Source: Carex sylvatica (taxonomy: Eukaryota; Streptophyta; Magnoliopsida; Poales; Cyperaceae). Taken from it: DNA of 64,000 nucleotides. Position 1 is the stretch's first letter. Every line of letters starts with the position of its first letter. A model generated the notes under the pieces. It was given only the letters and a program-made list of their open reading frames with translations. It was not told the DNA's origin and searched no databases. Location of the stretch: the NCBI GenBank assembly GCA_964058845.1, contig CAXKVR010000029.1, forward strand, positions 186,001-250,000, given 5' to 3'. Of this stretch, positions 3,845-17,480 are shown in pieces. The translations under genes were made by a program, and so were the position numbers.

Positions 3845-4191
3845 TGTTGAATATGGATACAAAATTAGAATCCGAATATTTCAGATTTAGAGATCTGGAT
3901 GCAACGTGTTGTGATGTATTTTTAGGCATGTAGTTGAGTTAGTGGGTTCTATAATTAGCCATGTAGGTTTTGTTTGTAATAGCAGGATACGTGGGGAATA
4001 ATTCTATTTTGGGGACTGCTTGTAATAGGAGGATAGGTAGTGGGGTGCTAAATTTAGATGTTCTAAATTTAGATTAATGTTTAGCTATAAATTGAGATGT
4101 ACTTTGTATCCGAATTAAGGAAGCAATAGAAGTTAAATTTCAGCAGCAAATTTCTTCTCTCTATTGTTGTATCCTTCAGAAATTTTCAACA
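3845..4191 (+). repeat. 5' LTR of the gene-capturing Copia element
   Basis: Begins TGTTGAATATGGATAC and ends TTTTCAACA. It matches the right-hand LTR across its full length, with substitutions only and equal length. It is followed by four bases and the TGGTATCAGAGC primer binding site. Confidence 0.93.
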
Positions 4192-4236
4192 AATTGGTAT
4201 CAGAGCCAAAAGTTTGAGATCAGGGCAGATCCTACC

Positions 4237-5170
4237 ATGGCAGAGAACATGAGCGTTCCGAATCCATCGATTCCGTTGTTCAAGGGAGACAACTATGAGT
4301 TCTGGAGCATCAAGATACGAACTTTGCTCAAGTCACAAGGTCTATGGGAATTGGTGGAGACGGGAGAACCAGGCACAGATCCCACACCAGCAGAAACAGC
4401 AAAGCGAGATGCGAAGGCGCTGTTCTTCATTCAACAAGCCGTTGTTGACACGGTGTTCACAAAAATCGCAGCAGCGGCATCAGCAAAGGATGCATGGACA
4501 ACCCTGAAAACCGCATTCCAGGGAAATTCAAAAGTTCGCGAGATAAGGCTACAAGGCTTGAGAAGAGAGTTTGAGACGTTGGACATGAATCAAGGCGAAT
4601 CTGTTCAAACATTTCTCACAAGAGTCACATCCACCGTCAACCAAATCAAGAGTTGTGGCGAAGATATCACAGAAAAGATCATGGTTATGAAGGTACTCCG
4701 CAGCCTTACAGCAAAATTCGACCATGTCGTGGCAGCAATCGAAGAGTCCAAGGACCTGTCCACATACTCTTTCGACGAGTTGATGGGATCACTCCAGGTC
4801 CATGAAGTTCGTCTCAACCGATCAGAAGTGAAGGACGACACCAAAGCTTTCTACACCAAGGGTGATTCCTCAAGAAGCCAACAGCAAGGCAGAGGTCTAG
4901 GCCAAGGTAACAGCAGAGGTCGTGAAAGAGGCACGAGCAGCGGAGACAACCGTCAACAACAACAAACAACAAAGAAGGATATTGAGTGTTACTATTGCCA
5001 CAAGTTCGGTCACGTCAAAGGCAGATTGCTACAAGAAGAAGAGGGAAGACGGACAAGGCAAGCAAGGCGTTGAATGCCACTATTGTCACAGAATTGGCCA
5101 TGTGCAGGCTGATTGCTACAAGAAGAAGCATGAGGAAGAGCAAGCCAATGTTGTAGAGGAAAATGAGTAA
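4237..5170 (+). pseudogene. Copia gag, frameshifted inside the first of two zinc knuckles
   Basis: Gag forms the retroelement particle and binds RNA. The frame starting MAENMSVPNPSIPLFKGDNY runs to 5073 with a normal plant Copia gag body (FWSIKIRTLL, then the LMGSLQVHE region near residue 185) and a Gln/Gly/Arg-rich tail. The first knuckle starts CYYCHKFGHVK, but one extra G shifts the frame so its last Cys (DCYKKK) lies in the +1 frame. That frame, open to 5170, carries a second complete CX2CX4HX4C knuckle, CHYCHRIGHVQADC. Two knuckles in tandem suggest a local duplication, since a single knuckle is usual in Copia gag. The shifted frame ends a few codons later, before protease. Confidence 0.85.
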
Positions 5171-5182
5171 CCATCACTCTTC

Positions 5183-5330
5183 ATGGCACACACCGAAAGC
5201 AAGATTGATGCAAGCAGCAAGAGCACAGTAGGAGTGCATATAAAAGAAAATGGTTGCAGCAGTCCAGGAAATGGCAAAATCATGGTGAGTAGAAATATTT
5301 TGTTTGATGAAAAAGCCCTCAAGGTGGAGA
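5183..5330 (+). pseudogene. Fused protease and post-integrase remnants of Copia pol
   Basis: The frame from 5183 reads MAHTESKIDASSKSTVGVHI then KENG, comparable with the protease stretch KGTIAVHTKENG of the intact Copia pol at 8076. It passes directly to GKIMVSRNILFDEKA, comparable with GKILISRNVVFDEEA after the integrase core. A deletion of about 1.1 kb relative to the intact pol therefore removed the rest of protease and the whole integrase. The deletion edge lies just before the captured PB1 segment. Confidence 0.75.
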
Positions 5331-5334
5331 ATCT

Positions 5335-5725
5335 AGGGCTCAATCGTCAGAGGCCGTTGAAGCTAGTGTACAACCATGATATACGACTAGCTCAGATGCC
5401 ATAAAAATGTAGTTTCAAGGTGTTGAGAGATATTGTGACAAAGATTTTTCCTTCATTAAAATCTGTGCTGATCAAGTACAAGGATTCTGATGGGGATCTG
5501 GTTACCATTACTGATACACAAGTGCTGAGGATGGCGGAATCATGTTTCGACCAGCCTGTACAGAAGGTGGCAGAGAAAGAAGAAAAAAGACTTTTCTTGA
5601 TGAGAATACATATTGTAGAAGTCAATCCTGAGCAAGAGTCTACAATCACAGGGGAGGAAGATCATGTAGTCGAAGAAAAAGAAGAGTTTGAAAAAGGAAG
5701 GAATATTGATAAGAAGAGGGAAGTA
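5335..5725 (+). pseudogene. Captured host gene fragment: PB1 domain of a CLMP1/Phox-type TPR protein
   Basis: After the Copia scrap the frame reads RQRPLKLVYNHDIRLAQMP, a TAA stop (5402-5404), then KCSFKVLRDIVTKIFPSLKS (K5405 onward), VLIKYKDSDGDLVTITDTQV and later MRIHIVEVNPEQES, ending in a Glu-rich stretch. Apart from the stop codon this follows the PB1 domain of plant TPR-PB1 proteins such as CLMP1: basic first strand, LREIV helix, the acidic KYKDxDGDLVTIT loop, then the RLxIVEVxPEQEP strand and acidic linker. PB1 domains mediate head-to-tail protein pairing. Copia elements do not encode one. No intron is seen within the segment, compatible with capture from mRNA. From 5420 the frame stays open into the retroelement RNase H, giving a potential 306-residue fusion. 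Confidence 0.8.
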
Positions 5726-5945
5726 AGAATTCCAGCACCGGATGGCAGTGGATTGACTCCAGACCTGTTAACCCAAGCAGAGGTAATCATGGAAAGAGGA
5801 GGTGACATGCCAAGTCAAGTGTCTGATTCCTTTGGAAATGGAAGAGGTTTTCTGGAGATGAAAAGTATTAAGGGAGATATTTTGAAAAAGGTGATCACAG
5901 AAGATACTGTTATCAAGCAAGAGAAGGTAATTGTCAAGGTTGGTG
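5726..5945 (+). other. Unrecognised open segment between PB1 fragment and RNase H
   Basis: In frame with the PB1 segment, it encodes a conserved-looking stretch including IPAPDGSGLTPDLLTQAEVI, then MPSQVSDSFGNGRGFLEMKS and KGDILKKVITEDTVIKQEKV. It matches no part of the complete Copia pol in this window and I do not recognise it. It could be a continuation of the captured host gene or a second captured exon. Confidence 0.5.
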
Positions 5946-6325
5946 AAAGTTCAAAGAAGCAAGCAACTATGGCATTGTCAACCTCTGAGGCAAAATATTC
6001 AGCAGTCAGTTTAGCGGCATGTCAAGCAGTTTCGCTAAGGCGTATACTTGTTGATTTTGAGCAGGAACAGCAACGGCCTACAATGATATTCTGTGACAAC
6101 CAATCAGCAATAGCAATGGCGCAAAATCCAGAAGTTCATGAAAGGATCAAGGATATTGACATAAGTGTTCATCTCATTCGTGACCTTGTGACAAATGGTG
6201 ACGTTGAGATCAGATATGTCAATTTAGACAAGCAGGTAGAAGACGTGCTTACGAAGGCATTGGCACAAAGCAAATTTGAACAATTTCGATCGACACATGG
6301 AGTTGGCAATTTTGTATCAAGGGGG
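5946..6325 (+). pseudogene. Copia RNase H C-terminal part
   Basis: Encodes SSKKQATMALSTSEAKYSAV and then FCDNQSAIAMAQNPEVHERI, matching the SSKKQATVALSSSEAEY and FCDNQSAIAMSKNPVFHGRS parts of the full Copia pol at 8076. It ends about six bases before the right LTR. The first catalytic Asp region (SDSDWAG) is deleted, so this is not a working RNase H. Confidence 0.85.
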
Positions 6326-6327
6326 AG

Positions 6328-6674
6328 TGTTGAATATTGAGACAAAATTAGAATCCGAATATTTCAGATTTAGAGATCTGGATGCAACGTGTTGTGATGT
6401 ATTTTTAGGCATGTAGTTGAGTTAGTGGGTTCTATAATTAGTCATGTAGGTTTTTTTTGTAATAGCAGGATACGTGGAGAATAATTCTATTTTGGGGACA
6501 GCTTGTAATAGGAGGATAGGTAGTGGGGTGCTAAATTTAGATGTTCTAGATTTAGATTAATGTTTAGCTATAAATTGAGATGTACTTTGTATCCAAATTA
6601 AGGAAGCAATAGAAGTTAAATTTCAGCAGCAAATTTCTTCTCTCTATTGTTGTATCCTTCAGAAATTTCCAACA
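6328..6674 (+). repeat. 3' LTR of the gene-capturing Copia element
   Basis: Starts TGTTGAATATTGAGAC right after the GGGGGAG purine tract and ends TTTCCAACA; followed by the TSD GGTGC. Confidence 0.93.
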
Positions 6675-6679
6675 GGTGC

Positions 6680-7041
6680 TACATACCAGTTGAAATGTTA
6701 ATGCAATCCGAATAGATCCTGGGTTGAAATGATCACATGAGTGGATTTCTTATTTCAGTACTAAACAGGGCATATTTTTTTTTATTGGAGAAGATCCTGG
6801 GTTGAAATGATCACATGAGTGGCTTTCTTATTTCATAGCTCATATAAAAGTCAAACATGAGCTTAGAAAAAGAGAAAACCAGATCATGTGATCATTTTAA
6901 CCAAGGGACTCGATCAGCATGAGGCATAGAAACAAGCATATGTAGAAATTTCTGACATGCCCCTCTACAACACACAAAAGATGAAATGAGCCCTTTCCTC
7001 CTAATTACTCTGACAGTCTGATCTTTCCAAAATTACCTCTG
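6680..7041. other. Short intergenic stretch with a direct repeat
   Basis: No gene. A block containing GATCCTGGGTTGAAATGATC and CACATGAGTGG occurs twice (about 6714-6750 and 6789-6822). Confidence 0.4.
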
Positions 7042-7046
7042 ATTTC

Positions 7047-7377
7047 TGTTGGGATAAACTCAGCAATACTGCACTGCTTTGTGCCCGTATGCAAAGGATT
7101 GAAGAGAGAAGAATATTTTTCTGAATAGAAACAATGTTTTATTTCCTTTCTCTCTTACTCAGTTACATAGAGTTCTACGATATTTATAATAGTACAATAA
7201 TTATCTAAAATAACTACCTACTAATAACTACCCACTACAAAACATGTGCTAAAAATAATAACCATACAGAAAAATAACTTGCAACACTCATAGCAGTTTT
7301 ACACGTCAGAAAACTACTCTCTAACCAACTTAATTTTTGCATATTTTCTAGAATCAATTTTTGAATTAATTTCAACA
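7047..7377 (-). repeat. LTR of Copia family A (3' LTR of the composite)
   Basis: On the plus strand it starts TGTTGGGATAAACT and ends TTAATTTCAACA; in minus-strand sense it follows the purine-rich tract AAAGGGGAG. No second copy of this LTR is present in the window. Confidence 0.8.
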
Positions 7378-8075
7378 CTCCCCTTTAATTCAAAATTGGT
7401 TATATCAACTATCAAGTTGGATTCTGAATTCTTCAAGCTTTTCTCTTGGCAATGCCTTCAGCAAAATGTCAACCTTCTGTTCTTCAGAACTTGCATGCTT
7501 GATCTCCATTTTGCTGCTGCCAATTCTTCTTGCAATGCTTGATGCCATGTTCCATTTCCTACTACTGCTTCAAAGATTATGGATCTTTGCCTTCCACCTT
7601 CTGTATACGCCATGAAAAGCATGGATTGCTCTTTCTTTTCTTCTTCACAGCATGCTTGCTGTTCTTCCCTCTGTTTTCTGAAACAATCGGCTTGCACACA
7701 TCCAGATCTGTTCTGCTGGAAGCACTAGACATCTTTTTGTCGTGCTGAAACTCAAACTCGCCAAATCTACAATGGCCACGTCCACCTCTGCCTTGAGAGG
7801 ACTCCTCCTTTCTGTAGAACACCTTTTCATTGTCTTTCTCCTTTGATCTGAACTTTGTTTCATGGATCTGCAGTGATCCCATCAGTTCATGAAAGGAATA
7901 GGTTGAAACATCATTTGATTCTTCAACTGTTGCCACCATGTGATCAAATTTTGGTGCTACGCTTCTCAGCACCTTTTCCACCATGGTTTGCTCTAAGATG
8001 TTGTCTCCATATGCTAGAATTTGGATGACAACAATCATGACTCTTAAAAGAAAAACCTGCATTGATTCTTCTATT
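7378..8075 (-). pseudogene. Copia family A gag fragment fused to RNase H tail
   Basis: Minus-strand frames show a gag body (SMQVFLLRV near 8050, then KVLRSVAPKFDHMVATVEES and STYSFHELMGSLQIHE), a zinc-knuckle end with frameshifts (QADCFRKQREEQQA), and directly after it the RNase H tail ending EEQKVDILLKALPREKLEEF. Protease, integrase and RT are deleted. The gag start and 5' LTR of family A are absent: at 8075/8076 the sequence switches to family B in the opposite orientation. Confidence 0.75.
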
Positions 8076-11000
8076 TTCAAATCACATGTCCGGATTCAAG
8101 CAGTTGTTTGAAGTTGTGGATGAAACATGCAAGTTGAAGGTTAAACTCGGCGATGACAAGCAGATTCAGGTAGAAGGCAAGGGCACAATTGCAGTGCACA
8201 CCAAAGAAAATGGTATGAAATTCTTGCATAATGTGTATTACATTCCAGAATTGACTCAAAATCTGCTGAGTATCGGGCAATTGATGGATTGTGGTTATTC
8301 AATTGTGTTTGAAGGAAAAACTTGTGTAATAAAATCTGAAAACCAGGTATTGGTAGAGGTGAACATGGCAACCAATAAATTGTTTCCCTTAGAGGTTTCA
8401 AATTTAAAGGAAAAAGCAATGGTTGCAAGAGATTTGAACCAATCTGAGTTATGGCATCTTAGATATGGTCATTTGAATATCAATGGTCTTAAATTGTTGA
8501 ACCAAAAACAAATGGTCCATGGCCTACCCGAAATCAACCAAATAGGTGTTTGTGAAGGGTGTATATTCGGTAAACAAGCCAAGTTTCCATTCCCAAAAGG
8601 CCAAGCCAAGAGAGCAACACAAGTACTTGAATTAGTTCATGCGGATTTGTGTGGTCCAATGCAAACCGAATCTCTTGGAGGCAGCAAATACTTCCTTCTT
8701 TTCACAGATGATTACAGTAGGATGAGTTGGGTGTATTTTCTACAAAGCAAAAGAGAGGCATTCAGAAATTTCAAGGTGTTTAAAGCTTTTGTAGAGAAGC
8801 AATCTGAAAAGAAATTGAAGGTGTTAAGAACAGACCGAGGAGGTGAGTTCCTCTCAAAAGAATTTATAAATTTCTGTGAAAACGAAGGGATTCACCGTGA
8901 GTTAACCACACCCTATACACCTGAGCAAAATGGGGTGGCAGAGAGAAAAAATAGAACAGTTGTTGAGATGGGTAGAAGCATGCTCAAATGCAAGAACCTA
9001 CCAAACAAATTCTGGGCTGAAGCAGTTGCAACTGCGGTGTATGTGCTGAATATTTCACCAACAAAATCGGTATGGAATAAAACTCCATTTGAGGCATGGT
9101 TCGAGAGGAAACCAGGGGTAAGTCATCTAAGAATATTCGGATGTATAGCCTATGCATTTGTTAATCCACAGAAGAGAACCAAACTTGATGAAAAATCTGA
9201 AAAATGTATTTTCATCCGGTATTGTACACAATCTAAAGGGTATCGGGTGTATAGTCCAGTTAGTGGTAAGATTTTAATAAGTAGAAATGTGGTGTTTGAT
9301 GAAGAAGCAAGATGGCAGCGGGAGGATATTGCACAACAACCACAGATTGAAGAAACAATAGACGAAGTAGACGAAATGGCTGCACAACAACAACCTAATC
9401 CAAACACTAGTACGCAACCCTCCAACAGTAGCATAAGCCAATCTTTTTTGAGTGGTGAAGAGAGCTCGGAAGAAACTTCAAGTCCTGAACCATCAATAAG
9501 AGTTTATAGGAGGCGTGATCGAAGTCCAGAAACAACAGGTAGAAAGACCAAAACCTTGCAAGAACTGTACGAAACCACACAAGTTCTCTTTGTTGCAAAT
9601 CCCACAACCTATGAAGAAGCGGCAGAAAAGGAGGAGTGGTGTAAGGCAATGCAAGAAGAGATGAGTGCAATTGAGAAGAATAAAACATGGCAACTTGTGA
9701 AACTTCCTGAAGGTAAGAATGCAATTGGAGTAAAATGGGTCTTCAAAACAAAGTTCGGTGCAGACGGAAGTGTGCAGAAATTCAAAGCAAGGCTTGTAGC
9801 AAAGGGTTATGCACAAGAGTATGGTATAGATTATGAAGAAACCTTCTCACCAGTGGCAAGATTTGAGACAGTGCGTTTGTTGCTAGCATTGGCAGCCCAG
9901 TTAAAAAGATCAGTGTATCAATTTGATGTTAAGTCAGCCTTTCTTAATGGTGAGTTGATAGAAGAAGTTTATGTTGAACAACCTAAAGGGTTTGAAGTAA
10001 AAGGCAAAGAGGGCTGGGTGTACAAGTTAGCAAAGGCTTTGTATGGTTTGAAACAATCACCAAGGGCTTGGTACAGCAAAATCGATTCTTATTTTATAAA
10101 TTCTGGTTTTGAAAGAAGCAAAAATGAGCCCAATCTTTACATCAAAAGGAATGAAAGAGAGGAGCTCTTGATTGTGTGCTTGTATGTTGATGACATGATC
10201 TATATGAGTACAAATGAAAAATTGTTGAATGAATTTCAACTAAGCATGAAAAGTCAGTTTGAAATGTCAGATTTGGGGTTGTTGCATTACTTTCTTGGGT
10301 TGGAAGTGGAGCAAGAAAATGGTAGCATCTTTGTTACTCAAAGGAAGTATGCAAAAGATCTACTCAAGAGGTTTGGAATGCATAGTTGCAAGGTTGCCTT
10401 GACACCTATAAATGTCAATGAAAAATTAGTGAAAGATGATGGTACAGGTGCTGCTGATGCAACAAAATTCAGAAGTTTAATTGGTGGTCTGATTTATCTA
10501 ACACACACAAGGCCTGACATCTTATACGCAGTAGGAGTAATCTCTAGGCACATGCAGAATCCAACCAAACATCATTTTGGCGCAGCAAAAAGAGTGTTAA
10601 AGTATATCTCTGGCACAACCGATTATGGGCTGTGGTATGGCAGCACAAAGTCATTTAACTTGTTTGGTTACAACGACAGTGACTGGGCTGGATGTGCAGA
10701 TGACAGAAGAAGCACCTCAGGTTACATGTTCTCATTCGGTTTAAGTCCGATCAGTTGGAGTTCGAAGAAGCAGGCAACAGTGGCATTATCCTCTTCAGAA
10801 GCTGAATATGTTGCAGTCAATTCAGCAGCTTGTCAAGCAGTTTGGCTTAGAAGAATTCTTGAAGATGTGGGACAAGTACAGCAGCGACCTACCCCAATTT
10901 TCTGTGACAATCAATCAGCCATAGCAATGTCAAAGAACCCGGTGTTCCATGGAAGGTCAAAGCACATCGACATTCGACTTCATTTCATTAGAGATTTAGT

Positions 11001-11138
11001 GGCATAGAAGATAGTGGAACTGAAGTTTGTTACTGCCGAAAATCAGAAGGCAGATATTCTAACCAAGGCGTTGGCACTAAGCACATTTGAAAATTTGCGA
11101 AAGAAACTTGGAGTAACCGATTTTGAATCAAGGGGGAG
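8076..11138 (+). pseudogene. Copia family B pol, left palindrome arm (nearly intact, one stop)
   Basis: A long frame, open to TAG at 11005-11007, encodes the end of protease (SNHMSGFKQLFEV; the catalytic DSG is cut off), GAG-pre-integrase (LWHLRYGHLN through CEGCIFGK, about residues 130-171), the integrase core with D195, D258 and E294 (D-x35-E), reverse transcriptase with FDVKSAFLNGEL and CLYVDDM, and RNase H with SDWAGCADDRRSTSG, SSSEAEY and FCDNQSA. Residues are counted from the ATG at 8062, which lies in family A sequence. The stop falls in the RNase H tail; the frame then continues KIVELKFVTAENQKADILTK to the purine tract before the LTR. The element lacks its own gag, promoter LTR and protease active site. 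Confidence 0.9.
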
Positions 11139-11319
11139 TGTTGAAAGTTGATCCAAAATTAGCTTTCTCTATTTAGAATTCTGTTGTAGTTATTTTTAGA
11201 AGCGTGGGAGTAGTGGGTATCTAAGTATAGCGGTCTGTAGAAGTTGTAGTTGGTTCTAAGTTAAGAATAGGCTTTGTGGTCCTGTAATTGAGGCGTGGAG
11301 TTAGTGGAGAACGTGGGCT
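11139..11319 (+). repeat. Truncated LTR of family B, left copy at the palindrome centre
   Basis: Begins TGTTGAAAGTTGATCC after AGGGGGAG and matches the U3 side of the complete LTR-B at 15027-15338. It stops near the GAACGTGGGCT block, leaving out the rest of the LTR. Confidence 0.85.
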
Positions 11320-11336
11320 CTATATTTAGAACACAA
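11320..11336. other. 17-bp asymmetric spacer at the palindrome centre
   Basis: CTATATTTAGAACACAA separates the two arms. Its first 11 bases (CTATATTTAGA) continue the LTR-B sequence in the plus sense, as seen in the complete LTR at 15027-15338; the rest is not LTR. Confidence 0.75.
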
Positions 11337-11517
11337 AGCCCACGTTCTCCACTAACTCCACGCCTCAATTACAAGACCACAAAGCCTATTCTTAACTTAG
11401 AACCAACTACAACTTCTACAGACCGCTATACTTAGATACCCACTACTCCCACGCTTCTAAAAATAACTACAACAGAATTCTAAATAGAGAAAGCTAATTT
11501 TGGATCAACTTTCAACA
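11337..11517 (-). repeat. Truncated LTR of family B, right copy at the palindrome centre
   Basis: Inverted counterpart of 11139-11319, ending TTTCAACA before CTCCCCCTT, the complement of the purine tract. In minus-strand sense it is the 3' LTR start of the right-arm element. Confidence 0.85.
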
Positions 11518-14500
11518 CTCCCCCTTGATTCAAAATCGGTTACTCCAAGTTTCTTTCGCAAATTTTCAAATGTGCTTAGTGCCTACGCCTTGGTTAGAAT
11601 ATCTGCCTTCTGATTTTCGGAAGTAACAAACTTCAGTTCCACTATCTTCTCTGCCACTAAATCTCTAATGAAATGAAGTCGAATGTCGATGTGCTTTGAC
11701 CTTCCATGGAACACCGGGTTCTTTGACATTGCTATGGCTGATTGATTGTCACAGAAAATTGGGGTAGGTTGCTGCTGTACTTGTCCCACATCTTCAAGAA
11801 TTCTTCTAAGCCAAACTGCTTGACAAGCTGCTGAATTGACTGCAACATATTCAGCTTCTGAAGAGGATAATGCCACTGTTGCCTGCTTCTTCGAACTCCA
11901 ACTGATCGGACTTAAACCGAATGAGAACATGTAACCTGAGGTGCTTCTTCTGTCATCTGCACATCCAGTCCAGTCACTGTCGCTGTAACCAAACAAGTTA
12001 AATGACTTTGTGCTGCCATACCACAGCCCATAATTGGTTGTGCCAGAGATATACTTTAACACTCTTTTTGCTGCGCCAAAATGATGTTTGGTTGGATTCT
12101 GCATGTGCCTAGAGATTACTCCTACTGCGTATAAGATGTCAGGCCTTGTGTGTGTTAGATAAATCAGACCACCAATTAAACTTCTGAATTTTGTTGCATC
12201 AGCAGCACCTGTACCATCATCTTTCACTAATTTTTCATTGACATTTATAGGTGTCAAGGCAACCTTGCAACTATGCATTCCAAACCTCTTGAGTAGATCT
12301 TTTGCATACTTCCTTTGAGTAACAAAGATGCTACCATTCTCTTGCTCCACTTCCAACCCAAGAAAGTAATGCAACAACCCCAAATCTGACATTTCAAACT
12401 GACTTTTCATGCTTAGTTGAAATTCATTCAACAATTTTTCATTTGTACTCATATAGATCATGTCATCAACATACAAGCACACAATCAAGAGCTCCTCTCT
12501 TTCATTCCTTTTGATGTAAAGATTGGGCTCATTTTTGCTTCTTTCAAAACCAGAATTTATAAAATAAGAATCGATTTTGCTGTACCAAGCCCTTGGTGAT
12601 TGTTTCAAACCATACAAAGCCTTTGCTAACTTGTACACCCAGCCCTCTTTGCCTTTTACTTCAAACCCTTTAGGTTGTTCAACATAAACTTCTTCTATCA
12701 ACTCACCATTAAGAAAGGCTGACTTAACATCAAATTGATACACTGATCTTTTTAACTGGGCTGCCAACGCTAGCAACAAACGCACTGTCTCAAATCTTGC
12801 CACTGGTGAGAAGGTTTCTTCATAATCTATACCATACTCTTGTGCATAACCCTTTGCTACAAGCCTTGCTTTGAATTTCTGCACACTTCCATCTGCACCG
12901 AACTTTGTTTTGAAGACCCATTTTACTTCAATTGCATTCTTACCTTCAGGAAGTTTCACAAGTTGCCATGTTTTATTCTTCTCAATTGCACTCATCTCTT
13001 CTTGCATTGCCTTACACCACTCCTCCTTTTCTGCCGCTTCTTCATAGGTTGTGGGATCTGCAACAAAGAGAACTTGTGTGGTTTCGTACAGTTCTTGCAA
13101 GGTTTTGGTCTTTCTACCTGTTGTTTCTGGACTTCGATCACGCCTCCTATAAACTCTTATTGATGGTTCAGGACTTGAAGTTTCTTCCGAGCTCTCTTCA
13201 CCACTCAAAAAAGATTGGCTTATGCTACTGTTGGAGGGTTGCGTACTAGTGTTTGGATTAGGTTGTTGTTGTGCAGCCATTTCGTCTACTTCGTCTATTG
13301 TTTCTTCAATCTGTGGTTGTTGTGCAATATCCTCCCGCTGCCATCTTGCTTCTTCATCAAACACCACATTTCTACTTATTAAAATCTTACCACTAACTGG
13401 ACTATACACCCGATACCCTTTAGATTGTGTACAATACCGGATGAAAATACATTTTTCAGATTTTTCATCAAGTTTGGTTCTCTTCTGTGGATTAACAAAT
13501 GCATAGGCTATACATCCGAATATTCTTAGATGACTTACCCCTGGTTTCCTCTCGAACCATGCCTCAAATGGAGTTTTATTCCATACCGATTTTGTTGGTG
13601 AAATATTCAGCACATACACCGCAGTTGCAACTGCTTCAGCCCAGAATTTGTTTGGTAGGTTCTTGCATTTGAGCATGCTTCTACCCATCTCAACAACTGT
13701 TCTATTTTTTCTCTCTGCCACCCCATTTTGCTCAGGTGTATAGGGTGTGGTTAACTCACGGTGAATCCCTTCGTTTTCACAGAAATTTATAAATTCTTTT
13801 GAGAGGAACTCACCTCCTCGGTCTGTTCTTAACACCTTCAATTTCTTTTCAGATTGCTTCTCTACAAAAGCTTTAAACACCTTGAAATTTCTGAATGCCT
13901 CTCTTTTGCTTTGTAGGAAATACACCCAACTCATCCTACTGTAATCATCTGTGAAAAGAAGGAAGTATTTGCTGCCTCCAAGAGATTCGGTTTGCATTGG
14001 ACCACACAAATCCGCATGAACTAATTCAAGTACTTGTGTTGCTCTCTTGGCTTGGCCTTTGGGAATGGAAACTTGGCTTGTTTACCGAATATACACCCAT
14101 CACAAACACCTATTTGGTTGATTTCGGGTAGGCCATGGACCATTTGTTTTTGGTTCAACAATTTAAGACCATTGATATTCAAATGACCATATCTAAGATG
14201 CCATAACTCAGATTGGTTCAAATCTCTTGCAACCATTGCTTTTTCCTTTACATTTGAAACCTCTAAGGGAAACAATTTATTGGTTGCCATGTTCACCTCT
14301 ACCAATACCTAGTTTTCAGATTTTATTACACAAGTTTTTCCTTCAAACACAATTGAATAACCACAATCCATCAGTTGCCCGATACTCAGCAGATTTTGAG
14401 TCAATTATGGAATGTAATACACATTATGCAAGAATTTCATACCATTTTCTTTGGTGTGCACTGCAATTGTGCCCTTGCCTTCTACCTGAATCTGCTTGTC

Positions 14501-14641
14501 ATTGCCGAGTTTAACCTTCAACTTGCATGTTTCATCCACAACTTCAAACAACTGCTTGAATCCGGACATGTGATTTGAACACCCGCTATCGAGAAACCAG
14601 ATGCTACTTGCTTCGACTTTGTCAACTTCGCTGCTGGCCAT
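11518..14641 (-). pseudogene. Copia family B pol, right palindrome arm (several inactivating mutations)
   Basis: Minus-strand pol with the same domain order as the left arm, plus the protease start WFLDSGCSNHMSGFKQ missing there. Defects visible by comparison: GAA to TAA in protease after HNVYYIP (near 14405), CAG to TAG soon after (near 14310), loss of one A in CCCAAAAGG (near 14060) shifting the frame before the integrase core, and TTG to TAG near the RNase H end (11583-11585). The frame from 14009 to 11586 holds the integrase core, RT with YVDD and RNase H uninterrupted. Scattered amino-acid differences from the left arm (for example ADPTTYE for ANPTTYE, GYSDSDWTG for GYNDSDWAG) show that the arms are distinct copies. 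Confidence 0.9.
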
Positions 14642-15010
14642 GAAAAGAGTTGGTTGCTCATCCTCCTCTTCGGTATAATTAGCTTGACTCTCCTCCCTTT
14701 GCTTCTTGTAGCACTCGGATTGATAGTGCCCAAACTTGTAGCAATAATAGCATTGAACGTCCCTCTTGGAATCGTCGTATGAATTTGCTTGATTGCTTCT
14801 ACCTCGGCCTCTACCTCCTCTACTGGAATCAGCCCGTCCTCTGCTGGGATTGTAGCTGCCTCTGCTCGAATTATTTCTTCCTCTACCTCTGCCTCTTGGG
14901 TAACCATCAAATCTGCCTCTTGATGACTCCCCTTGAACAACGGAATCGACGGATTCGAAACGCTCATGTTTTCTGCCATGGTCGGATCTGCCCTTATCTC
15001 TAAACCTTAG
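14642..15010 (-). pseudogene. Copia family B gag, internally deleted
   Basis: Starts MAENMSVSNPSIPLFKG at 14979, then jumps to an Arg/Gly/Ser-rich gag tail in a shifted frame. In another frame a zinc knuckle CYYCYKFGHYQSEC is read near 14720-14760. Compared with the gag at 4237, most of the body (about 600 bp) is gone. The knuckle frame runs on into the protease of the right palindrome arm, as in a Copia gag-pol polyprotein. Confidence 0.8.
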
Positions 15011-15022
15011 GCTCTGATACCA
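15011..15022 (-). other. Primer binding site of family B element
   Basis: In minus-strand sense TGGTATCAGAGC, complementary to the 3' part of initiator tRNA-Met, four bases from the LTR end. It marks 15027-15338 as the 5' LTR. Confidence 0.85.
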
Positions 15023-15026
15023 ATAA

Positions 15027-15338
15027 TGTTGGAAATTTCAGAAAGGATACAAAAACAAAGACAGATTCTCTGCTGGAATAAAACTAAACTCAATTACTTA
15101 GTTAATAAAACAGATTACAACTCCACTATTTAAGACATATCAAATGTCTAAATATAGAGCCCACGTTCTCCACTAACTCCACGCCTCAATTACAGGACCA
15201 CAAAGCCTATTCTTAACTTAGAACCAACTACAACTTCTACAGACTGCTATACTTAGATACCCACTACTCCCACGCTTCTAAAAATAACTACAACAGAATT
15301 CTAAATAGAGAAAGCTAATTTTGGATCAACTTTCAACA
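15027..15338 (-). repeat. Complete LTR of Copia family B (5' LTR of the composite)
   Basis: 312 bp, plus-strand TGTTGGAAATTTCAG to CTTTCAACA. Its U3 side matches the truncated copies at 11139 and 11517. Followed by the TSD ATTTC. Confidence 0.88.
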
Positions 15339-15343
15339 ATTTC

Positions 15344-17480
15344 TTCCTGATATTTTGTGGAGGACAATAAATACCACAATGACCACTAATTCCTGTGTTC
15401 AAAATGACAGAAAGAAGCACATGCTGAAAGCAAAGCAAAAGTTACTTAGGCACTGTGAACAGCTTTTGAGTGAAGGATTTTGAACTTGACCTCCTTGTCA
15501 GGAATGAACATTTGCAATGTCTCTCTCCTCAATGAAAATTTCTAATGTCCCCACCTACACATCACAAAATAATTAAAAACGTTACAATTATCAATTGATA
15601 AATTGATAAAAAAGAGAGAATAAATGCACAAACAGGGATTCTGTGGGGGTACTTCTCTCTGATACAAGCAGCTTCAGCTTGGCTCTGCTCTGCTCTGAAA
15701 ATAAAAAGGCAATCTATGAAATATATACACAATTCAATATATGTACTGAATTAAATCTCTATTTCGAATCATACCCCCAAAAATAGTAGTAATTAGATTA
15801 AAAACAGTAGTTATTCAACACAATGAACCTCCATTAAAATCTAATTTCCATGGAAAACTATAACATATATCCTAACATATATTATACAATGCAAAGGAAA
15901 ACCGGAGTGAGTTTACCTAGCATGAATATTGACAACTTAAGAATCGCTTATGGAGAAAAAAGAAACTTCGAGAAATCAGTACATGGGAAGCTTAACTCCT
16001 ATGCCATTATAAGGTATTTCGAGAAATAGGAAACTAAAAGAAAAGTTATTAAATTAACTCACCCAAATTTGCTCCAAATGGCATTGGCGAGAATTGATCA
16101 GCCCTCAGGAGTTTCTGACATTGAACTCCCAAAATATCCAACAGAAGCTGAAAAATTCTATAGAAATCCAAGTTTTGATTGAGTTGATATCCTGGGCATG
16201 AAGAATTACCGTGAAATATAGTTGTCATGTGTTGGGTGTTAGGAATTAAAATTGAGATATTTTCACTTGGTTCAACAACACTAATTATCCAATTCCTCAC
16301 CATTTCTTACCAAATATTGAAAAGAAATAAGCAACAGTATCGCCAAAAGAGTACTGATTTTTTTCCCACACAATGTAATTTTTCAATGAAAGAAACCAAA
16401 TTCTTATGATAAATATATAGAAACTAAAATGCTTTGAGTTACAAACCTTGGAAAGTCGAGGCATATGCATTGGCGTTGCTATGCATTTACCGAAGTTTAG
16501 CCTGTCATGCCTAGCAATTTTCAAACATGGATTAGCTCAAACCTAACTCCAAACAAAATATAAGAAAGAACATATCATGTAGAAAGAGAACTTACAGCTC
16601 TGACATGAAACTTTGCTTCAGATGAGGCCGCAGCTCCTCTAATCTAACCCATGTGCCTTCTGATCAACATCTGAAAATCTAATTCCAAACAAATCATTTT
16701 AAAGGAATTCTCAGCCAATCAACCATTGATCCAATGAATAGCATAAAGAACGCGATACATTAGCTCAGGCTTCAAAGAAATTATCTCGTGACTTGTCTAA
16801 GGTATCTATATTTTGGAATTATGTTCAAAGAATATTGCCTTCAAATAAAATTTACATGACTGGCATGGGGCATTTTCATATTTGTCGCTTTTGACAGTGA
16901 GATATGAAGTACACCACTGGAAATATTCATAGAATGCCACAGTTCTTCTTCTTATTTTTTCTTCTCTCTCTTTGTATATAAGCACTGAGCATACTGCCAG
17001 TATCTACTAAAAACAAACAATGACAGAAATCAGTTTGACAAAAAATAATCACAACAAATCAATAAATTATTTAGGGGGTGATGAACTCACAATCTACCAA
17101 GAACCCCGAAGAAAAAAAATTCTTGTCGTTACAAAGCCAGCCTCTAACCCTAGAAGAGGAAATGCGCAAAATCAACGATCAACGACATAGAAAAGAAAGC
17201 ACCTATTCACCCAGACAAAAACAGCACACGCGATCGATTCCTTCCGAGATGGCGCTGAAAAAGATTAACCCTAAATCGGTTGAGGTCAGTGAGAAAGGAT
17301 AAGAAGAAGCGGTCAGTGGTTCCTTAAAAGAGAAGTTGGGGCGTGGGTTAGCGGAGGCGAAGAAGAAAAGGAGCGCTACTGCCTACTGCACGAGCGCGGA
17401 CCGACAGAAAAAAGAGAAAAAGAGCGTCCGGATAGGAGAGAGAGAAAAAAAAATGCGTTTTCTGCATCGATAAATGAAAA
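15344..17480 (-). other. Possible 5' region of a minus-strand gene; no coding exon recognised
   Basis: The 17180-17460 part is markedly more GC-rich than its surroundings and, on the minus strand, contains the plant 5'-UTR-like motif ATTTAGGGTTAATC and purine/pyrimidine-rich tracts. Exon-like blocks bounded by AG and GTAAG-like signals occur near 16615-16672. No frame gives a protein I recognise. It may be the transcription start of the TIM14-like gene, separated from its exon by the Copia insertions, or an unrelated transcript. Confidence 0.3.

Follow-up and report, generated by a model that had tools for sequence, protein, structure and literature searches.

A Composite Copia Insertion in Carex sylvatica Bounded by LTRs of Two Families and Containing a Palindrome

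In the window, by which we mean the whole 64-kb stretch of Carex sylvatica DNA analyzed here, a block of ~8.3 kb bordered by one 5-bp TSD carries a complete LTR of a different Copia family at each end, LTR-A on the left and LTR-B on the right, around a long palindrome of element B. This block is likely the single insertion of one composite DNA, built by repeated template jumps during the reverse transcription of co-packaged B, the autonomous partner, and A, probably a non-autonomous one.

Results

The block occupies positions 7047-15338, with ATTTC immediately outside both ends, and is composed as follows:

7042-7046: left copy of the TSD ATTTC, adjoining the U5 end of LTR-A
7047-7377, minus strand: complete LTR-A, 331 bp, with TG...CA ends; the U5 end of this LTR forms the left insertion edge
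7378-8082, minus strand: 3' portion of A's internal region, with a polypurine tract and a gag remnant; 7047-8082 is 96.5% identical to two copies of A on C60
8076-8082: TTCAAAT, the 7-nt microhomology of the A/B junction, present in both elements
8076-11330, plus strand: inverted partial B, with the gag end, integrase, reverse transcriptase, RNase H, the polypurine tract, and the first 192 nt of LTR-B
11331-11336: filler ACACAA, 6 nt, at the center of the palindrome
11337-11517, minus strand: truncated 3' LTR-B, first 181 nt only, with 2 differences from the complete LTR-B
11518-15026, minus strand: internal region of B, with the PBS adjoining the LTR, gag, pol, and the polypurine tract (Pfam domains)
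15027-15338, minus strand: complete LTR-B, 312 bp, with TG...CA ends; the U3 end of this LTR forms the right insertion edge; full-length matches at C744 (same locus as C776), C114, and C100
15339-15343: right copy of the TSD ATTTC, adjoining the U3 end of LTR-B

These coordinates confirm the original prediction that the outer ends of a minus-strand LTR-A and a minus-strand LTR-B form the edges of the interval, with ATTTC outside each. That the two LTRs come from two Copia families is borne out as well: they differ at 148 of 291 aligned bases (the compared slices being short by 2 and 1 terminal bases) and therefore represent two different families, which are nonetheless related. The 5-bp match itself stands, whereas its chance level, first put at about 1 in 1,000, is somewhat higher, since two random 5-mers are identical with a probability of 0.0018 when computed for this AT-rich window. 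The TSD, together with outer ends that are mixed but correct (U3 from B, U5 from A), points to one concerted integration.

Two observations had been named beforehand that would speak against a single event, namely separate TSDs for A and B and an empty-site allele lacking only part of the interval. Separate TSDs were looked for at the window locus and none was found; a nested insertion was rejected because A and B are without TSD pairs of their own and because the inverted arm does not end at an LTR terminus on either side. Also rejected was a recombination of two independent insertions lying next to each other, which predicts no matching TSD, whereas ATTTC does match. A search of the plant's own assembly with the flanks (15339-16338 and 6676-7046) found no empty-site allele, partial or otherwise, and the flank matches found elsewhere in that assembly are partial, at ~80-91% identity, none of them reaching the insertion point.

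A tail-to-tail inverted duplication of B, 3.2 kb long, takes up most of the interior and had been overlooked in the earlier analysis: 8076-11330 on the plus strand and 11337-14579 on the minus strand are separated by 20 substitutions in 3,243 aligned bases. Because of this inverted repeat, the interval is not a simple A-to-B join. Read in the sense direction, that is along the minus strand, its first half runs through the complete LTR-B, the PBS, the gag-pol of B, 181 nt of 3' LTR-B, and the 6-nt filler; its second half consists of antisense B from 192 nt inside the LTR to gag, followed by TTCAAAT, the 3' 0.7 kb of A, and the complete LTR-A. On the side of the right arm, B proceeds normally through gag, PBS, and LTR-B, apart from a gap in gag at ~14930, where ~575 bp that three other B loci possess are absent. 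The center of the palindrome lies inside LTR-B, which the left arm enters by 192 nt and the right arm by 181 nt; these two pieces are the only LTR-B sequence that the interior holds, and it contains no complete third LTR. Both LTR cuts adjoin a TATA-like word at LTR position 183, a putative promoter, and the 9-mer CACAAAGCC running out of the filler is also present in LTR-B antisense. The long reading frame of the left arm, in which Pfam recognizes rve (residues 187-287) and RVT_2 (residues 540-783), stops early, and that of the right arm is interrupted.

The comparison of the two arms gave 22 listed differences, one of which is a slice-edge artefact, leaving 21 (20 substitutions, 14 of them transitions, and one 1-base indel). 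When set against the B loci on C744, C114, and C100, 13 of these differences are derived in the right arm and 8 in the left, with none split across those loci; a further 5 sites are common to both arms against all three. As every one of the 21 differences is private to one arm, both arms descend from a single B sequence, and the use of two different templates was rejected because 0 of the 21 are split across the other B loci. Taking substitution rates of 1.3e-8 and 7e-9, the 20 substitutions in 3,243 bases would date the insertion to roughly 0.24-0.44 million years ago.

The same comparison bears on whether the palindrome is real, since a chimeric or fold-back read can be assembled into just such a structure and long palindromes are a known artefact of long-read data. 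Arms that were initially identical and then mutated apart make a fold-back read unlikely; with arm-specific substitutions scattered along the arms, most of them transitions, a TSD that matches at both ends, and zero N in the 64-kb window, we consider an artefact of assembly or library construction hardly credible.

Element B shows TG...CA LTRs, a PBS, a polypurine tract, 5-bp TSDs, and a pol with integrase ahead of reverse transcriptase, as in Ty1/Copia (Pfam), and is by these features an ordinary Copia element. Its three other loci (C744, C114, and C100) measure ~4.7-4.9 kb, with TSDs TTAGC, TAAAG, and GTTGG and with 5, 0, and 0 differences of 313 between the paired LTRs; C776 is the same locus as C744, given 0 differences in 2,148 bases and matching flanks. 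As for A, four full-length copies of its LTR lie at two loci of C60 (95-97% identity over the 329 queried bases), and these are the only two places where A is found with two LTRs. They share their flanks and the TSD CTTCG, so they may be one duplicated insertion. There, A is ~1.58 kb long, with ~0.92 kb between its LTRs and with BLAST similarity of gag type and terminal only; being too short for pol, it is probably non-autonomous. The gag piece of A retained in the window scores 24.7 bits against Pfam Retrotran_gag_2 (E 1.8e-5), under the cut-off of 27. Since A, B, and a third family, C, have in common TGTTG...CAACA ends, the primer-binding site TGGTATCAGAGC, and similar purine tracts, one set of enzymes could serve all three.

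Where A meets B, a microhomology of at least 7 nt is matched by a fraction of 0.00065 of 200,000 random A/B joins, a figure calculated post hoc with the junction already seen. A query piece laid across this junction has 11 matches, among which the window alone spans it; the others stop or start within query positions 97-103, which are the 7-nt word, or earlier, covering 1-103 or 97-201 and never both. For the center of the palindrome, 18 matches comprise 2 of full length, both of them the window locus on its two strands, and 16 half-matches. Neither internal junction was thus found a second time in the 64-Mb assembly, and it follows that no second copy of the composite was found there. A point against template jumping is that host end joining, acting on the ends of cDNA, could also produce this 7-nt word and the filler.

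The insertion in the window is not the only locus of this group with opposite-strand LTR pieces. Full-length matches to the LTRs of A, B, and C define at least 20 loci (the window, 3 other B, 2 A, and 14 C, with C776 counted with C744), and at least 3 of these 20 contain such pieces, 40 of 55 candidates having been scored and the interiors of 9 of the 20 loci read. Two of them are further composites:

C233:204686-207728: composite with TSD TGCCT
C373:15001-18717: composite with TSD GCCCT

In C233, the outer LTR-C is followed by 9 nt of PBS, an inverted U5 end of LTR-A, a sense U5 end of LTR-A, the PBS, and the gag of C, and the turn point falls inside AAGAGAGAA, a shared word of 9 nt. At C373, a C element carries the inverted piece with a copy of a 138-bp repeat on either side; this piece consists of the RNase H end, the purine tract, LTR-C, and 7 nt of PBS. 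The copied LTR thus ends 9 nt or 7 nt into the PBS, and in both composites outer LTRs of one family surround the internal inverted pieces. One-LTR circles or products of reverse transcription have the order polypurine tract, LTR, PBS; a single integrated element does not. The C373 piece differs from the 3' end of its own element at 18 of 699 positions when the outer LTRs differ at only 1 of 347, so it comes from another C copy, and the same-template result obtained for the window therefore does not carry over to C373.

Discussion

The original prediction proposed that an A-B molecule was joined before integration and contributed one LTR end from each family. With a shared TSD and two unique junctions, this remains the simplest reading, but the palindrome was absent from it, and a palindrome of B in the interior means that the join needs a switch onto the complementary strand rather than the mere fusion of two templates. 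In the course of events that we favor, RNAs of A and B would have been packed in one particle, and the growing strand, close to the LTR's promoter region, would have left one B strand for the complementary one. A second switch, inside gag and between B and A, may have been aided by the microhomology, after which B's integrase would have attached the molecule to its target by the U3 end of B and the U5 end of A, with the customary stagger of 5 bp. Which of the two switches came first is not readable from the product. As the left arm reaches 11 nt deeper into the LTR than the right, a simple fold-back of the right-arm strand is insufficient, and either a second B strand or an end that is asymmetric must be assumed. 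An autointegration (suicide integration) of B was also considered and rejected, both internal junctions being inside an LTR or gag and none at an LTR terminus.

The polypurine tract-LTR-PBS order in C373, along with the presence of same-family and cross-family inversions in the group, leads us to place the joining during cDNA synthesis. Switching between complementary strands over 3.2 kb is far less documented than switching from RNA to RNA. For the latter, copies and ecDNA of Onsen in Arabidopsis offer a likeness, with high-frequency recombination, LTR recombinants included, that the portion of the study covered here ascribes to two co-packaged RNAs of one burst (PMC5668417). The switches treated there are homologous, keep the same orientation, and stay within one family, and the terms "inver" and "chimeric" are absent from the text (PMC5668417). 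In HIV-1, an intermolecular second-strand transfer is possible, according to the part of the report drawn on here (PMC5651808).

Integration could instead have used two donors, a B cDNA and an A cDNA each supplying one end; the host would then have sealed their inner ends by microhomology-mediated end joining, and the broken end of B would have folded back. This scheme accounts for the mixed outer ends and the TSD, for the lost remainder of the inner B LTR and the lost 5' part of A, and for a 7-nt microhomology accompanied by filler; host alternative end joining does act on retrotransposon cDNA in second-strand transfer, as the consulted part of one study has it (PMC12786077). It nonetheless demands long synthesis or a second B molecule for the 3.2-kb inverted copy and leaves C233 and C373 unexplained, where outer LTRs of the same family enclose internal inverted pieces; for the window insertion, we judge it unlikely.

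Less probable still is a rearrangement after integration, in which the inverted duplication arose later, by replication-based repair, in an element that had been inserted as an ordinary or A/B recombinant copy. DNA repair in genomes commonly yields fold-back inversions that carry short microhomology and filler; here, however, both termini and the TSD are intact and both switch points lie inside the element, the sole A/B junction sits in the inverted arm, so that an earlier A/B junction would need to have vanished, and the same group holds two more inverted composites. We regard this scenario as quite improbable and retain template jumps between co-packaged B and A as the preferred reading.

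With respect to known systems, Du et al. reportedly described in soybean, in 2010, an autonomous element and a short non-autonomous partner that exchange LTR sequence. Compared with such LTR swapping, the window insertion has the whole LTR of the partner as one end, and an inverted joint. Among the titles and openings of abstracts that our literature search covered, with subscription papers mostly outside its scope, no LTR insertion combining outer LTRs of two families with an internal palindrome was found. The original prediction knew of no standard class for such an element; template-switching complexes flanked by TSDs had in fact already been described, though with matching outer LTRs and with no description of inversion (Sabot and Schulman 2007; PMC1950507). 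Like those complexes, which were ascribed to template switching between co-packaged RNAs, the window insertion is a composite of two LTR elements with one 5-bp TSD. In contrast, their outermost LTRs are highly similar, and inside they have a third LTR, also complete, and two equally oriented cores, both complete (PMC1950507). The window insertion has outer LTRs of two families, a partial A, a B with a deletion in gag, and a second B copy that is both partial and inverted. The window insertion works like a template-switching complex but lacks the matching outer LTRs and the complete cores.

If the preferred reading is true, one locus records that an autonomous element was packed together with a probably non-autonomous one, that a single integrase complex used mixed LTR ends, and that cDNA synthesis switched onto a complementary strand. 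Such loci also violate an assumption of LTR dating and annotation tools, which presume that outer LTRs were initially identical. More speculatively, and in our view improbably, strands of the A/B/C group might repeatedly end reverse transcription in an alternative way, jumping near the LTR and PBS onto complementary strands of their own or a partner element and so giving rise to inverted cross-family composites that still integrate in the normal manner. On that same tentative footing, the window copy, which keeps the complete LTR-B promoter region and is missing R-U5 between its arms, would for this reason transcribe a 3.2-kb hairpin RNA, possibly a natural silencer of B. Inverted arms of this kind would be a possible route from a retrotransposon to a hairpin RNA directed against its own family, and the putative silencer of family B may be likened to Mu killer of maize.

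Copia-related Elements Near and Beyond the Insertion

A C-family Copia element, separate from the composite insertion, lies 0.37 kb from it, and its two LTRs show 9/347 differences:

window 3845-6674, C-family element, TSD GGTGC

In a Pfam profile search, its frame 5420-6340 matched the PB1 domain (PF00564, E 8.5e-6), which suggests that the C family, a short, multiplied family, may have captured a fragment of a host gene.

Elsewhere in the assembly, two A elements on one contig (C60) and two LTR-like units were found:

C60:53968-55546, A element
C60:443051-444627, A element
L014 1501-1847, LTR-like unit, U5 side A-like, first 24 bases B-like
L015 1373-1720, LTR-like unit, U5 side A-like, first 24 bases B-like

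The outer flanks of both A elements are identical, which suggests a large duplication or assembly redundancy. As judged from their sequence, the LTR-like units are apparent mosaic LTRs, with 93-94% A-likeness on the U5 side and, in one of the two, an additional C-like stretch.

On another contig (C939, L021 1501-1601), a lone 101-bp piece of the LTR-A U5 end, 99% identical to the window copy and close to the expected R-U5 length, adjoins unrelated DNA.
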